Below, in pieces: positions 3,123-12,125 of a stretch of DNA of 35,161 nt. The notes under the pieces are model-generated. The model saw only the letters and a program-made list of their open reading frames with translations. It was not told the DNA's origin and searched no databases. Both the position numbers and the translations under genes were made by a program. Every line of letters begins with the position of its first letter. Position 1 is the stretch's first letter. Source of the stretch: Acidobacteria bacterium RIFCSPLOWO2_12_FULL_67_14b (GTDB lineage Bacteria; Acidobacteriota; Vicinamibacteria; Vicinamibacterales; UBA2999); assembly GCA_001768615.1 (NCBI GenBank), contig MELE01000110.1, forward strand, positions 1 to 35,161, given 5' to 3'.

Positions 3123-3560
3123 ATGAAGCGGTTCCGATCGCTCGCTCGCGGTATCGCCGCGGTCTGGCTCGTATGCCAGGCGGCGTCGGTCGCGGCGTTC
3201 GTGCCCGGTCCGTGTTGCCTCGCGCACGCGGAGGAAGCCGCCGCGAAGAAGGCGGAACCACCGTGTCATGGCGAGCAGCCTGCGCCGGAACCGGAACCCG
3301 GCGAGGCCTGCCCGATGCATGACGCCGGGGGTGCCGCCTGCCCGATGCACGACTCGTCGCGGAACGCGAACTGCTGCGCGATGACCAACGCGTGCCAGGG
3401 GCCAGGCACCCAGCTGGCCAACCTGTTTGCGTTCGTCGGCGTGCTCGACGCGCCCGCGTCGTCGGTCACACCTCCTGCGTTATCGGCGGTCCCTGTCGAG
3501 CCAGCCGCTCGGCTGTTCTGCCGCCTCGTCCGCCCGGACGCGCCACCTCCCAAAGCCTTA
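3123..3560 (+). other. Cys/His-rich putative metal-binding leader domain (ancestrally probably a separate small protein)
   Basis: GPCCLAHAEE, PPCHGEQ, duplicated ACPMHDAGG/ACPMHDSS, NCCAMTNAC; ends PDAPPPKA, after which TAG occurs one base out of frame (3559-3561). Confidence 0.6.
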
Positions 3561-6470
3561 GAAACCGTCCGTCTTGAGCCGTTCACGGCGGGCGCATGCC
3601 CGGCCGCCGGCTTCACTCTTGGTTTCTCTCGGTTGGAGGTTTCAATGTTTTCGGATGCGCGATTCTCGATCGCCCTGGGCTGCGTCCTGGCGTTTGCCTG
3701 TCCCCTCGTCGCCCAGCAAACCGTCGATGTGGCGAGCGTCAGCGGCCGCGTCGTCGATACCAGCGGTGCCACGGTGCCGGGAGCCCAGGTCACGGCGGTC
3801 CAGCTCGACACGAACCTGGTCGCCACCGCGGTGACCGATCAGGACGGCCGTTTTCGATTTCCGTACTTGCGCATCGGGCCGTATGAGATCACGGTCGGTC
3901 TGTCGGGCTTCGAGGACGTGAAGCGCCGGTTGACGCTGAGCGTCGGCGCGGCGTACGAGTTGCCCATCCGCCTCGCCGTGAGCGGCGTCACGTCGACCGT
4001 GACGGTCACGGCCGAAGCCGCCGTGCTCGAAGCCGCGCGCAGCCAGATCGCCGCGACGGTTTCGGAATCGGAGGTCCGGGCGCTGCCGATGAACGGCCGG
4101 AACTTTCTCGAACTCGCGCTGCTGGTGCCCGGCGTCTCGCCCACCAACATCGCGAGCACGCAGCTGTTTCCGGAAACGTCCGCCGTTCCCGGTATCAGCA
4201 TTTCCGTCGGCAGCCAGCGCAACCTGTCGAACAACTTCGTCGTCGACGGCTTGTCGGCCAATGACGATGCGGCCGGGCTGAGCGGCATCACCTACGGCGT
4301 GGACGCCATCGAACAGTTCCAAGTCATCACATCCGGCGCGCAAGCGGAGCTCGGACGCGCGCTCGGCGGCTACATCAACGTGGTCACCAAGAGCGGCACC
4401 AACACGTTCCGTGGAACGGTGTACGACTTCATCCGGGACGATCGTTTCAACGCGACCAACGCGCTGTCCGGGACGAAGCTGCCCATGAGCCAGTCACAGT
4501 TCGGCGGGAGCCTTGGCGGGCCGATCGTGCCGAACCGCACATTCTATTTCACCAATGTCGAGCAGCGCGCGCTCGACCAGACCGGGCTGGCGACCATTAC
4601 GGCCGCCAACGTCAGCGTCGTGAATGCGCGGCTGGATGCCGCGGGCTACCAGGGGCCACGGATTGCGACGGGCATCTATCCGAACCCCGTGGACTCCACC
4701 AATGTGCTGGCCAAGATCGATCAACAACTGAGCGGCCGCGATCAGGTAAGCATCCGCTACAGCCGTTACAGCGTCGGCGCCGACAATTCGCGCGGCGCCG
4801 GCGGCCTGAGCGCCCCGTCTGCGTCATCAGGGCTCGATAACGCCGATCAGGCCTTCGCCATCGGCAACACGCTGATCCTGTCGCCGCGGACGGTGCTCGA
4901 AACCCGCGCCCAGTTCGCGCACGGTGACCTCAAGGCCGAGCCGTCGGACCCGATCGGCCCCGCCGTCAGCATCGCCGGCGTCGCCTCCTTCGGCACCAGT
5001 TCGAGCAGCCCAACGGGCCGCCGCAACACGATGTTCCAGGTGGTCAACAACCTGTCGCACCAGGCCGGCGCCCATGCGGTTCGGGCGGGGATCGACGTGC
5101 TCTACAACGACGATCTGATTACTTTCCCGCGCGCCGTCCGCGGCAGCTACACCTTCTCGTCGCTGGCCAACTTCCGGTCCGGCGTCTACAACAACGCGGG
5201 TTTTTCCCAGACCTTCGGCATCACGGCGCTCGCCCAGACCAATCCCAACCTCGGCGTTTACGTTCAGGACGAATGGAAAGTCACGCCGAGTGTCACGCTG
5301 AATGCCGGCGTGCGATACGACCTCCAGCGGCTGGAGACCATCAACACCGACACCAATAACGTGTCGCCGCGCGTCGGCGCGGCGTGGTCGCCCTTCGAGT
5401 CACGGCGGACGATCGTCCGCGCCAGCGCCGGCCTCTTCTACGATCGCGTGCCGCTGCGCGCGCTCGCCAATGCGCTGATGTCGGCCGGCAACACCACGGA
5501 CGTCGACGCCCTTCGACAGTTTGCCGTCAGCCTGTCGCCCACTCAGGCCGGTGCGCCGGCGTTTCCGAACGTCCTGGCTGCCGCAGTGCCGGCGGTGACC
5601 CTGCCCAACCTGACGACGATGGACCGCAACCTGCAGAACGGGTCGTCGCGGCAAGTGAGCGCGGAGGTCGAGCAGCAGCTGGGCTCCCGTACGACGCTGG
5701 GTGTCGGCTATCAGTTCCTGGAAGGACGCAACCTGCTGATGTCGGTGAATCAGAACGTCCCGACGTGCGTCGCCGCGGGCACCAACAACGGCTGCCGGCC
5801 CAACTCGAGCTACGCCAACAACAGCCAGTACTCGTCCGCGGGAGAGTCGACGTATCACGGGCTGCATGTCTCGCTGTCGCAGCACACCGTCCGATGGGGG
5901 CAGTACCGCCTCTCGTACACGCTGTCGAAGGCGATGAACAACCTGGGAGAGTTCTTCTTCAGCTCGCCGATCGATCCGACGGACTTGTCGAAGGACTGGG
6001 GGCGCGCCGACAACGATCAGCGCCACCGCCTGGCCATGAACGCAGCGATTCGCACGTCGATGGAGCCGGCAGACGACGCGTGGGAGCACCTCACGCACGG
6101 GTTCCAGATCAGCGGGATGCTGCAAGCCTACTCGGCGCCGCCGTTCAACATCATGTCCGGGGTCACGACCATTCAGGGCACGGCCGGGCGCCCGATCGTG
6201 AACGGCGAGTTCATCGACCGGAATGCCGGTGACGGAACCGCGTTCTTCAGTCTCAGCGCCCGGATCAGCCGGGCGTTCCGGCTGGCCGGTCGCGTGCAAC
6301 TCGAGGTCCTGGTCGAGGGCTTCAACCTGACCGATCGCGCGAATGTGGTCACGCGGAACACCACCTTCGGCTCGGGAACCTACCCTGCCAACCCGTCCGC
6401 GACATTCGGCCGGATCACCGCCGTCGGCGAGCCCAGGTCGTTGCAGCTCGGCGGGCGCCTGCGCTTCTGA
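3123..6470 (+). CDS. Single ORF: N-terminal Cys/His-rich secreted leader fused to an Oar-like TonB-dependent receptor (internal start at 3645)
   Basis: No stop between MKRFRSLARGIAAVWLVCQ... and the internal start MFSDARFSIALGCVLAFACPLVAQQ (ATG 3645, GGAGG upstream); carboxypeptidase-regulatory-like domain SGRVVDTSGATVPGAQVTA; plug and barrel; terminal F. Confidence 0.85.
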   Translation: MKRFRSLARGIAAVWLVCQAASVAAFVPGPCCLAHAEEAAAKKAEPPCHGEQPAPEPEPGEACPMHDAGGAACPMHDSSRNANCCAMTNACQGPGTQLANLFAFVGVLDAPASSVTPPALSAVPVEPAARLFCRLVRPDAPPPKALETVRLEPFTAGACPAAGFTLGFSRLEVSMFSDARFSIALGCVLAFACPLVAQQTVDVASVSGRVVDTSGATVPGAQVTAVQLDTNLVATAVTDQDGRFRFPYLRIGPYEITVGLSGFEDVKRRLTLSVGAAYELPIRLAVSGVTSTVTVTAEAAVLEAARSQIAATVSESEVRALPMNGRNFLELALLVPGVSPTNIASTQLFPETSAVPGISISVGSQRNLSNNFVVDGLSANDDAAGLSGITYGVDAIEQFQVITSGAQAELGRALGGYINVVTKSGTNTFRGTVYDFIRDDRFNATNALSGTKLPMSQSQFGGSLGGPIVPNRTFYFTNVEQRALDQTGLATITAANVSVVNARLDAAGYQGPRIATGIYPNPVDSTNVLAKIDQQLSGRDQVSIRYSRYSVGADNSRGAGGLSAPSASSGLDNADQAFAIGNTLILSPRTVLETRAQFAHGDLKAEPSDPIGPAVSIAGVASFGTSSSSPTGRRNTMFQVVNNLSHQAGAHAVRAGIDVLYNDDLITFPRAVRGSYTFSSLANFRSGVYNNAGFSQTFGITALAQTNPNLGVYVQDEWKVTPSVTLNAGVRYDLQRLETINTDTNNVSPRVGAAWSPFESRRTIVRASAGLFYDRVPLRALANALMSAGNTTDVDALRQFAVSLSPTQAGAPAFPNVLAAAVPAVTLPNLTTMDRNLQNGSSRQVSAEVEQQLGSRTTLGVGYQFLEGRNLLMSVNQNVPTCVAAGTNNGCRPNSSYANNSQYSSAGESTYHGLHVSLSQHTVRWGQYRLSYTLSKAMNNLGEFFFSSPIDPTDLSKDWGRADNDQRHRLAMNAAIRTSMEPADDAWEHLTHGFQISGMLQAYSAPPFNIMSGVTTIQGTAGRPIVNGEFIDRNAGDGTAFFSLSARISRAFRLAGRVQLEVLVEGFNLTDRANVVTRNTTFGSGTYPANPSATFGRITAVGEPRSLQLGGRLRF

Positions 6471-7349: not shown

Positions 7350-9143
7350 ATGCGCACAGCCCTTCGTCTTATCGCGGCATTGACTGCACTGATGGCCTCG
7401 GCCGTCGCTCCGCTGTCCTCGCAAGTGGCGGCCGTGCCGCCGCCGGCCGCCCCGGCGAGCGAGCTGGCGGCGATGGTCGACCGCTACAACCTCGATCGCG
7501 GCGCGCTGTTTCGCCGCTACGACGTCGAGTTCTCGCCCGAGCGCTACGCCCGGTTGACGAAGTTCTACAAGGACTGGCAGCAGGACCTGTCGAAGGTCGC
7601 CTTCGACAGGCTCGCCGTGGAAGGGCGCATCGACCACACGTTGCTGCGGGCGCGCCTCGAGTACGAGCTGCGCCTGCTCGCCCGTGAACAGCAGTGGGTC
7701 TCGGAGGCCGCGTCGCTGGCGCCCTTCTCATCGACGATCACGGCGCTACTCGAGCAGCGCGGCCGGCTGGAGACCATCGACCCGCCGAAGGTGGCCACGA
7801 CGCTCGCCACGCTCACGCGCGACATCGAGGCGGCCACCAAGGCGATCGACGCGACGCCCAAGCCGCCGGCGATCGCAACGGTGTCGGATCCGGCCCGCGC
7901 GCGCCAGATCAACGCCTTCCGGGCCGCCGGAGTCCTCAGCAGCCTCCGCGACGACCTCACCGCCTGGAACCGGTATTACAGCGGCTACGACCCGATGTAC
8001 ACCTGGTGGGCCGCCCGGCCCTACGCGCAGGCCGACAAGGCGCTGGCGGCCTACATCAAGGCGCTGCGTGAGAACATCGTCGGCTACCGTGACGGCGAAG
8101 ACGAGCCGATCATCGGCAACCCGATCGGCAAGGCGGCCCTGGTCGAGGACCTCGCGTCGGAGTTCATTCCGTATTCCCCTGAGGACCTGCTGGCCATCGC
8201 CGAACGCGAGTTCGCCTGGTGCGACCGCGAGATGCTGAAGGCGTCCCGCGAGATGGGGTTTGGCGACGACTGGCGCGCGGCCCTCGAGAAGGTGAAGACG
8301 CTGCACGCCGAGCCCGGCAAGCAGACCGACCTGGTGCGCGACCAGGCGCGCGAGGCCGTCGCCTACGTCACCACCCGCGACCTCGTCACCGTGCCGCCGC
8401 TCGCCGACGAGACGTGGCGGATGACGATGATGTCGCCCGAGCGGCAGAAGGTGAACCCGTTCTTCCTCGGCGGCGAGGTGATCCAGGTGTCGTTCCCCAC
8501 CGACGCGATGGATCAGGCCGACAAGATGATGAGCATGCGCGGCAACAACATCCACTTCTCGCGCTCGACCGTGTTCCACGAGTTGATTCCGGGCCATGGC
8601 CTGCAGCAGTTCATGACCGCGCGCTACAACCCCCACCGCCGCGCCTTCGCCACGCCGTTCTGGACCGAGGGCTGGTCGCTCTACTGGGAGATGTTCCTCT
8701 GGGATGATGGCTTTCCCAAGACGCCCGAGAACCGCGTCGGCATGCTGTTCTGGCGCATGCACCGTCAGGCGCGCATCATCTTCTCGCTGCGCTTCCACCT
8801 GGGCACGATGACGCCGCAGGAATGCATCGACTTCCTGGTGAACCGCGTTGGCCACGAGCGCGCCAACGCCGAAGCCGAGGTCCGCCGATCGTTCAACGGC
8901 ACCTATCCCCCGCTCTATCAGCTCGCCTACATGATCGGCGGGTTGCAGTTCAGGGCGATGCAGGCCGAACTGGTGGGATCCAACCCTTCGACTTCGCTCA
9001 GGGCAGGACGGATGACCAACCGGCAGTACCACGATGCGGTCCTGCAGGCTGGCAGCATGCCGGTGGAGCTGGTGCGCGCGTCGCTGACGAAGCAGTTGGT
9101 GCCCGCGGGTTTCCGGACGACGTGGACGTTCGACCGCAGATGA
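7350..9143 (+). CDS. DUF885 family protein (putative HExxxH-type metallopeptidase)
   Basis: Signal peptide; STVFHELIPGHGLQQFM; WTEGWSLYWEMFLWD; carries in-frame insertion NPSTSLRAG from a palindromic repeat. Confidence 0.85.
   Translation: MRTALRLIAALTALMASAVAPLSSQVAAVPPPAAPASELAAMVDRYNLDRGALFRRYDVEFSPERYARLTKFYKDWQQDLSKVAFDRLAVEGRIDHTLLRARLEYELRLLAREQQWVSEAASLAPFSSTITALLEQRGRLETIDPPKVATTLATLTRDIEAATKAIDATPKPPAIATVSDPARARQINAFRAAGVLSSLRDDLTAWNRYYSGYDPMYTWWAARPYAQADKALAAYIKALRENIVGYRDGEDEPIIGNPIGKAALVEDLASEFIPYSPEDLLAIAEREFAWCDREMLKASREMGFGDDWRAALEKVKTLHAEPGKQTDLVRDQAREAVAYVTTRDLVTVPPLADETWRMTMMSPERQKVNPFFLGGEVIQVSFPTDAMDQADKMMSMRGNNIHFSRSTVFHELIPGHGLQQFMTARYNPHRRAFATPFWTEGWSLYWEMFLWDDGFPKTPENRVGMLFWRMHRQARIIFSLRFHLGTMTPQECIDFLVNRVGHERANAEAEVRRSFNGTYPPLYQLAYMIGGLQFRAMQAELVGSNPSTSLRAGRMTNRQYHDAVLQAGSMPVELVRASLTKQLVPAGFRTTWTFDRR
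8984..9007 (+). repeat. Short palindromic dispersed repeat, inserted in frame in the DUF885 CDS
   Basis: CCCTTCGACTTCGCTCAGGGCAGG; related to the inverted copy at 9172-9203. Confidence 0.75.
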
Positions 9144-9773: not shown

Positions 9774-9788
9774 GACTTCTCCACGTCC

Positions 9789-9858
9789 GGAGTTCGGAGC
9801 CCGGGGCCCGGAGCCCGGGGCCCGGAGCCCGGAGCCCGGAGCCCGGAGCCCGGAGCCC
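9789..9858. repeat. Heptanucleotide tandem repeat (GGAGCCC)n, 10 units including variants
   Basis: GGAGTTC GGAGCCC GGGGCCC GGAGCCC GGGGCCC GGAGCCC x5; lies in the gap between the second TonB receptor stop and the RidA start. Confidence 0.95.
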
Positions 9859-9866
9859 GGAAGACG

Positions 9867-12125
9867 TTACTGCCAACTGATCCGGGCGCCGACCCGCAGC
9901 GTCCGCGGCCAGCCGATCTGCCGCAGCGGCGTACGCGCCGTGTCGTACTCGGCGTCGGTGATGTTCTCGACCGCCAGGAACGCGTTCACGCCGCGCCTGA
10001 TCGCCCGGCTCACGTTGGCGTCCCACACGGCGTAGGCGCCGAGCACGAACGACAGCGTGTTGAGGTCGTCGTCGAACTGCTTGCCGCTGAACCGGACCTG
10101 CGTGGCGGCGGTGAACCAGCGCGGCTCGGCCCACGTCAGGCCGAAGCCGCCCTGCCACACCGGCACCTGCGGCACGTCGTTGTCCCTGATGGCCGGCGCC
10201 GCCACCGAGCCGCGGAAATGGCTCGAGGTGAGGACCACCTGCCCGTTGAAGCTGAGCGTGTTGGTCAACCGCGTGTCGAACTCCATCTCGAGGCCGGTCG
10301 CGCGGATGGTATCGGAGTTCTGCCGCTGACGGATGGTCTGGGTCGGCGTTTGCGTGAGCGTGATGTTGGCGATGGCGCCGTCGAGGTTGTTCATGAACGT
10401 CGTGGCGCGGACCGAGGCGCGCGAAAACGACACGAGCACGCCGCCCTCGGCGCCCGTCATGGTTTCCGGCTCGAGCAGCGGGTTGGCGTTGGTGATCGCC
10501 GTGCCGGCGGCGAAACGGCGATGGAGCTCGTTCAGGGTGGGCGTGCGATTGGCGTGATACCCCGACACCTGGACCTGATAGCGTCCGCGGCGCCACGCGA
10601 TGGCGCCGCGGGGGCTGACAAAGTTCACCGACTTGGTCGGCTGCGTGGTGTCGGCGGGCTCCGACGTCCAGGCGTCCCCGCGCACGCCGACCTCGAGGGT
10701 CAGGGCATCGGTGGCATTGACGCTGGCCCGCGCGTAGATGGCGCCGACGCGCTCGGTGCCGCCCGAGGCGAAGGGGCCGCTCGGCCGGTTGACGCCCGCG
10801 ACCAGCGCGTAGCGCAATTCGTCCTGGTTCGACTTGGTGTAGCGGTAGTCGGCGCCGGTGATCATCGTGACGCGGCCCATCGGGCGCGTCCACTGCCCGT
10901 GCGCCATCCGGTGCGAGGTGTCGATGAACTGTTCGAACGTCAGGCGCTCGGTGGCCCGGCCCGCCGCCACGAACGAGAAGGTCTGGTAATAGTCCTGGTT
11001 GCTGCCGACGGCCTGGAATTCAAACACACCGCCTCCCAGCAGTCCGCCGGCCTCCGCGGACAGCTGCTTCCAGTCGGTCGAATTCACCTGCACCACGGTG
11101 CCGTTGCCGCGCTCTTCCGTGTAGCCCGCACCGCGCATCGTCAGATGCCAGTTGTCCCGGCGGCGCCCGACCGTGAAGAACCCGGTCTGATAGTCGCTGT
11201 CAGCCCTCTGGTCGGCCCGGCCGCGCACCTCGGACGCGACAATGAACGCGCCATCGGTGCGCACGCCTTCATAGGCCCCCGACGCCATCCAGCCATCCCG
11301 TTCGGCGGACGCGAACAGCGACCCGCGCAACGTGTCGTGAGAGCCGCCATCAATCGTCGCCCTGGCGCGCGTGCGGCTCGGTTGCACGGTGATCAGCTGC
11401 ACGACGCCGCCGAGCGCCCCGGCGCCGTAGAGATCGCCCGTGGCGCCGCGGACCACTTCCACGCGATCGACGGCGGCCTGCGGGATGCGGTTCCAGTAGA
11501 CCCAGCTCCCGAACGGATCGTTCAACGGGACACCATCGGCGAGCACGAGGGTGCGGCTGGAGCCCGATCCCGACACGCCCCGCAGCGTCACGCCCTGCGT
11601 CGTCGGGTTCGCGACGCGGGACGAGGAGCGGCGGAACAGCGTGAATCCGGGCGTCGACCTCAGCGCGTCATCCAGCGCGCCAGCGGCCATGTTGCTCAAC
11701 TCGGCCGCGGTGATCACCGTCGAACTGGCGGCGCTCGGCAGGCGTTCGGCGCCACGCGTGGCCGTGACCACGATCGAGTCCGCGAAATTCACCGGACGGA
11801 GCACCACCCTGACGGGGCCGGGGCCCGTAATCTGTACCTCGGCGGTCTCGAAGCCTTCCGAGGCCACGCGCACGCGGGCGGCCTGCACGCCCGCGTCGAA
11901 GTTGCCGTCGCCGTCGCTCTGAACGGTCACGGTGCGGCCGTCCTTGGTTCGCGCCTCCACCGACGCGCCGGGGATCACCGCGCCGGAAACGTCGAGCACC
12001 GTGCCCGTCGTCGTCTGGGACGCGGGCGGCGTGGGGGATGAAGCAACCTGCGCATCCGCGGCGGGAACCGCGAGCAGCGCGACAACGACGCCAAGTGTGG
12101 CAACAAGTCTCGCCTGTCCAATCAT
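9867..12125 (-). CDS. TonB-dependent receptor with N-terminal carboxypeptidase-regulatory-like domain
   Basis: TGTVLDVSGAVIPGASVEA; plug DSIVVTATRGAERLPSAAS...RGVSGSGSSRTLVLADGVPLNDPFG; C-terminal ENITDAEYDTARTPLRQIGWPRTLRVGARISWQ. Confidence 0.9.
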   Translation of the reverse strand: MIGQARLVATLGVVVALLAVPAADAQVASSPTPPASQTTTGTVLDVSGAVIPGASVEARTKDGRTVTVQSDGDGNFDAGVQAARVRVASEGFETAEVQITGPGPVRVVLRPVNFADSIVVTATRGAERLPSAASSTVITAAELSNMAAGALDDALRSTPGFTLFRRSSSRVANPTTQGVTLRGVSGSGSSRTLVLADGVPLNDPFGSWVYWNRIPQAAVDRVEVVRGATGDLYGAGALGGVVQLITVQPSRTRARATIDGGSHDTLRGSLFASAERDGWMASGAYEGVRTDGAFIVASEVRGRADQRADSDYQTGFFTVGRRRDNWHLTMRGAGYTEERGNGTVVQVNSTDWKQLSAEAGGLLGGGVFEFQAVGSNQDYYQTFSFVAAGRATERLTFEQFIDTSHRMAHGQWTRPMGRVTMITGADYRYTKSNQDELRYALVAGVNRPSGPFASGGTERVGAIYARASVNATDALTLEVGVRGDAWTSEPADTTQPTKSVNFVSPRGAIAWRRGRYQVQVSGYHANRTPTLNELHRRFAAGTAITNANPLLEPETMTGAEGGVLVSFSRASVRATTFMNNLDGAIANITLTQTPTQTIRQRQNSDTIRATGLEMEFDTRLTNTLSFNGQVVLTSSHFRGSVAAPAIRDNDVPQVPVWQGGFGLTWAEPRWFTAATQVRFSGKQFDDDLNTLSFVLGAYAVWDANVSRAIRRGVNAFLAVENITDAEYDTARTPLRQIGWPRTLRVGARISWQ

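Follow-up and report, generated by a model that had tools for sequence, protein, structure and literature searches.

A Cys/His-rich leader with CCT-biased polyproline codons as a probable regulatory upstream ORF of Oar-like TonB-dependent receptors in an acidobacterial order

We uncovered, upstream of an Oar-like TonB-dependent receptor in the acidobacterial order Vicinamibacterales, a small Cys/His-rich leader that is probably a cis-acting regulatory upstream ORF: it would sense copper, arrest the ribosome at a C-terminal PPP motif and unmask the Shine-Dalgarno (SD) sequence of the receptor, the two being separate genes. What is new here, as far as the sequences and their predicted folds go, is that the CCT-biased PPP codons of the leader would form an anti-SD pairing with the ribosome-binding site (RBS) of the receptor. 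The system was first encountered in a 35,161-nucleotide stretch of DNA from Acidobacteria bacterium RIFCSPLOWO2_12_FULL_67_14b (contig MELE01000110.1; henceforth the window), wherein leader and receptor lie in a single open frame on the + strand that runs from 3114/3123 to a stop at 6468-6470. Its features are:

3123-3557, + strand: leader of 145 codons, a Cys/His-rich, Sec-signal-like small protein and probable regulatory upstream ORF (homologs in 38/162 order genomes and 59/193 class genomes; conserved R5, C73, M75, H76 and P141-143)
3540-3557, + strand: A-P-P-P-K-A codons of the leader C-terminus, the proposed arrest motif (conserved prolines at a fixed distance to the stop)
3545-3550, + strand: anti-SD ACCUCC within the proline codons, which pairs with 3635-3640 in the MFE and centroid folds
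3558-3560, + strand: TTA codon at the stop position of the relatives' leaders, a lost stop (TAA in the relative L002 by ungapped alignment; TGA in the relative L003)
3558-3644, + strand: former intergenic spacer of 87 nt, now open and in frame (length inside the relatives' 55-253 nt range; GC3 0.62)
3635-3639, + strand: receptor SD GGAGG, 5 nt 5' of ATG 3645, as read from the sequence
3645-6470, + strand: Oar-like TonB-dependent receptor with its own start and a signal-peptide-like N-terminus (PF13620 and PF25183 above cut-off; orthologs begin at the corresponding Met)

A first reading, made from the letters of the window alone (the sequence-only reading), had noted the unbroken frame from 3123 to 6470, a series of Cys/His motifs in its first part and a second signal peptide from ATG 3645 with its own GGAGG. 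The frame is indeed open, the motifs CCLAH, PCHGE, two ACPMHD units and NCCAMTNAC are every one present, and a signal-peptide-like N-terminus does follow the GGAGG at 3635-3639; the signal peptide of the leader was assessed by eye. The assignment of the second part to the Oar-like TonB-dependent receptors is likewise borne out by a CarboxypepD_reg N-terminal domain and an OMP_b-brl_4 barrel, with PF25183 (358.7 bits) and PF13620 (71 bits) both exceeding their cut-offs, and going by these Pfam matches its fold class is clear. A search of the receptor for diagnostic copper-binding residues found none; it has two conserved Cys (708 and 717) and a few conserved His/Met, which are not diagnostic of copper binding. 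The leader, in turn, matches no Pfam model and gave only a sub-threshold hint of CopL in the profile search. It looks poorly ordered, and a search of its own genome for a second copy found none. Neither an Rfam match in the window nor a sigma-70-type promoter near 3123 was found.

The homolog search called for by the sequence-only reading recovered the leader from across the order, so it is not a chance ORF. The order survey found it in 38 of 162 genomes; within the class, 59 of 193 genomes and 40 of 104 genera have it, and when 396 genomes were sampled across the phylum, the 19 positives all came from the window's own order. An alignment of 28 leaders shows near-invariant columns at R5, C73, M75, H76 and P141 and invariant ones at P142 and P143. 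The family combines a Sec-type signal and a near-invariant CPMH with a C-terminus that typically reads P-[DE]-x-PPP-[RK]-x, the stop falling two codons past the last Pro. Between the last core Cys and PP, most members have a spacing of 49-53 residues (51 in the window), and 24 further, mostly more distant leaders keep the Pro motif within ~7 residues of the end. The leader body is poorly conserved, with a mean column identity of 28%.

The leader is also strongly associated with TonB-type receptors, and with this and the conserved Cys/His positions it passes the refuting check that the sequence-only reading had set for its metal proposal. In 27 of the 40 loci read in the order survey such a receptor begins 55-253 nt past the leader stop, most of these being 60-80% identical to the window receptor and five 45-50%; that of locus L073 is only a distant TonB receptor. 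For 10 of the 24 further leaders, a TonB-type N-terminal domain lies no more than 270 nt away. As judged from these comparisons, the leader is a conserved Cys/His protein that is probably exported, bears metal-type motifs and is tied to a TonB receptor subfamily. Receptor orthologs that lack a recognizable leader exist as well, including one from the same genus (G003); hence, the leader would be an optional control module. The operons often run on with a BNR-like secreted protein after the receptor. In L051, L053, L054, L057 and L066 the leader precedes a BNR-like secreted protein in place of the receptor, and MbnH-type di-heme enzymes come next in L051 and L066.

The gene neighborhoods of other leaders further point to copper: a multicopper oxidase follows the receptor in L058, CopD is found near the leader in L075 and L085, MbnH in L051 and L066, CusA/CzcA in L072 and tyrosinase in L075, while the receptor of L080 comes closest to the TonB-copper model, below its cut-off. 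Some of these copper-type neighbors are on the other strand or at least one gene away and support copper as context only, and the leader of the window itself has no copper gene next to it. The receptor substrate is, going by the genes near other leaders only, likely copper or a copper complex; among the papers listed on Oar-like receptors with copper in Acidobacteria, none was to the point. The DoxX and DCC genes beside the window locus, which had been taken to make a thiol/metal-handling locus plausible, drop out as parts of the system: both are on the opposite strand and are not conserved, as no other leader was seen with DoxX nearby and a single one has DCC. Elsewhere in the window, the - strand at 9867-12125 encodes another TonB-dependent receptor, comprising CarboxypepD_reg and Plug domains, for which no NCBIfam model scored above cut-off. 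Near the end of its gene, at the start of a RidA-like ORF on the - strand, is a tandem array of ~10.7 copies of the 7-base unit CCGGAGC (9787-9861). A short TTCGACTTCGCTCAGGG-like element at 8987-9003, inside a DUF885 gene, reads as an in-frame insertion (STSLRAGR).

There is experimental precedent, in CutF (PMC9973294) and CruR (PMC9426467), for copper-responsive control of a downstream gene by the proline-containing end of a Cys-bearing leader as it is being synthesized. Like the leader described here, CutF of Rhodobacter capsulatus (from cutFOG) is a small Sec-exported protein with a Cys motif in its mature part, a proline-rich C-terminus and a short spacer containing a stem-loop that hides the SD of the next gene (PMC9973294). 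The counterparts in our family are a signal peptide judged by eye, a metal-type Cys/His motif and a proline-rich C-terminal motif evident from the alignment, and a predicted SD-masking stem-loop, which reaches a pairing of 0.98 in the window and exceeds its recodings over the whole set, though not at every locus. In contrast, CutF is turned on by copper and controls a multicopper oxidase, whereas the main target here is an Oar-like TonB receptor; moreover, the anti-SD of CutF is described as lying within the intergenic stem-loop (CTTC), and here it is inside the proline codons. CruR of Bordetella pertussis (DUF2946, PF11162; PMC9426467, PMC12992588) is likewise an upstream ORF that bears Cys and has a Pro motif at its C-terminus; its Cys-to-Pro spacing is fixed (CXXC-RAPP), and it precedes a TonB-dependent transporter (PMC9426467), just as the present leader heads an operon with such a transporter in 27 of the 40 loci. 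Its arrest at RAPP has been demonstrated in vitro (PMC12992588). However, CruR has CXXC and RAPP, a 162-nt spacer and Rho-dependent termination, as against the CPMH and PPP-[RK]-x-stop of our leader, in which the CXXC and C-terminal RAPP are wanting. Neither the window leader nor 11 leaders searched at E up to 1 matched PF11162, and a profile search of 40 genomes with this model gave no match in the window's own genome.

CopL (NF033807), which is found upstream of copAB in Xanthomonas, is another small Cys/His-rich protein before a copper gene, but its downstream gene is different; it has been described as acting only in cis (PMC9973294). The window leader scores 14.9 bits against the CopL cut-off of 40, and the genome search with this profile again gave no match in its own genome. 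Since both profile tests fail, the leader is filed outside the DUF2946 and CopL families, although by its anatomy it would belong with the copper-sensing upstream ORFs CutF, CruR and CopL. SecM and the RAPP-type arrest peptides share with it an export signal, a C-terminal Pro-containing motif and an SD-masking stem-loop that is opened by the stalled ribosome (PMC10987492); unlike the proposed function of the leader, they monitor the Sec/YidC machinery rather than a metal, and their motifs are RAPP/RAGP-like as opposed to PPP-[RK]-x-stop.

The codons of the C-terminal prolines show a constraint of their own. CCT accounts for 47 of the 118 C-terminal Pro codons (40%) as against 6.0% in the receptors and 9.5% in the leader bodies, and for 36% in the leader PPP versus 14% in PPP elsewhere in the same loci (p = 2e-4). 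The bias recurs in the second set of 24 leaders (20/67 versus 26/238, p = 3e-4), and CCTCC occurs in or beside PPP in 26 of 37 leaders. In the window, ACCUCC (3545-3550) pairs with GGAGGU (3635-3640), and the SD pairs with the last leader codons at 0.98 versus 0.23 for synonymous recodings; a ribosome over the leader end is predicted to raise the unpaired probability of the SD region from 0.02 to 0.48. Over 23 loci, with receptor starts picked by a simple rule, this pairing is 0.44 versus 0.24 for synonymous recodings drawn with background codon usage (Wilcoxon p = 6e-4), and the RBS of each locus pairs better with its own leader than do the swapped RBSs of other loci (permutation p = 0.003); these pairing and codon p-values are somewhat optimistic because of close relatives in the set. 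Little SD pairing is predicted for about a third of the loci, and the window region, taken as a whole, has an unexceptional fold (z = -1.41).

These observations suggest, with somewhat less than even confidence on our part, that arrest motif and RNA switch coincide in a few nucleotides, the CCU polyproline codons both holding the ribosome and masking the receptor SD. It is also conceivable, though rather unlikely in our estimate, that CCT in PPP only slows the ribosome as a rare codon, with the SD pairing a by-product and control exerted by arrest together with, for example, Rho-dependent termination. Such an explanation would account for CCT being enriched also in the last of the three Pro codons (35%), a position in which CCT alone creates no CCTCC, and CruR does work through Rho (PMC9426467). 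Against it, the enrichment is highest at the middle codon (49%), the pairing exceeds that of synonymous recodings drawn with background codon usage, and it is better with the RBS of the same locus.

We propose a regulatory upstream ORF in which the Cys/His segment probably samples copper as the leader is translated and exported, and translation is stalled or slowed over the final codons by the C-terminal PPP-[RK]. Within the mRNA, the same proline codons would pair with the receptor RBS and keep the receptor shut; a ribosome held on PPP would cover the proline-codon strand and open the receptor start, and upon its release the hairpin would re-form. On the model of CruR, whose target is an uptake receptor, the arrest would be released once metal binds, and the receptor thereby turned off. 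It counts against this model that the Pro motif is PPP-[RK], unlike the RAPP known to arrest CruR; further, the proline motif of CutF alone gave no stall in a LepB fusion (PMC9973294).

An alternative interpretation of the leader would be a secreted copper- or metal-binding protein, such as a periplasmic chaperone or scavenger, that shares the operon and acts in trans, as hinted by the signal-peptide-like N-terminus, the many Cys and His in most members and the metal-type neighbors. We consider this improbable, given that the strictest conservation is in the last codons and their distance to the stop, for which a chaperone has no need, that the body is so poorly conserved and that the codon-level constraint in PPP points to RNA.

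The sequence-only reading had treated the leader as fused in frame to the receptor; as a feature of the system this does not hold, since, among the 37 leaders whose C-terminus is complete in the order survey, 36 have their own stop, placed exactly two codons past the last Pro, and the window is the sole exception. In the same-genus relatives L002 and L003 the leader ends in PDAPPPKA followed by a stop (TAA and TGA, respectively), and a receptor with its own start follows 92 nt and 90 nt, respectively, after the first base of the leader stop codon. A gapless alignment around this stop reads GCC TTA GAA ACC GTC in the window and GCG TAA GTA ACC GTC in L002. Because the 36 other leaders stop there and a same-genus relative has TAA, we read the leader and receptor as two genes, with the fusion private to this assembly through a lost stop. 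Indeed, in L003 the two genes share a frame with a single TGA between them, so that a single base change can join two such genes. GC3 in the 29-codon spacer (3558-3644) is 0.62 versus 0.81 in the leader and 0.87 in the receptor, as might be expected of formerly non-coding sequence, though the stretch is short. The stops in the relatives rule out fusion as an architecture. Selected readthrough is likewise set aside, the two genes being in the same frame in 12 of 27 leader-receptor loci, near the 9 expected by chance.

The lost stop would be either a recent mutation or a consensus error. At the contig start (1-185) are two exact 92-base tandem copies, possibly an assembly-end artefact, which bear on the trust to be placed in single bases of this assembly. 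A divergent Cys-rich leader before a receptor ortholog (L101, genome G086), in which APPPK is followed by ~20 extra residues before the stop, is another possible loss of the usual leader stop. With the stop lost in the window, either the assembled base would be wrong or the receptor would also be made as a fusion, with some control lost. That the loss is both real and functional, giving a leader-receptor fusion with a Cys/His metal-capturing domain at the outer membrane, is very improbable: the frame is open throughout and the leader motifs are intact, but no other fused case is seen among 36 complete leaders, the receptor's start inside the frame, its SD and the second signal-peptide-like segment have all been kept, the PPP codons can still form their hairpin with the SD (which is to be expected of a very recent loss or an error), and the spacer GC3 is low. 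As to the earlier idea that the leader senses or captures metal, sensing is the better guess; capture by a fused leader is unlikely because in the relatives the leader is a short protein of its own.

Our analysis shows how a striking "fusion" can reduce to one lost stop codon, and points to a metal-type regulatory leader family that lacks a Pfam model and is found across one little-studied bacterial order. Its link to the associated Oar-like receptor subfamily gives these receptors a likely ligand class, namely copper or a copper complex. If the proposed mechanism is true, it would give an outer-membrane receptor a minimal metal switch that acts co-translationally, a directly testable design whose codons serve peptide arrest and RNA masking at once.
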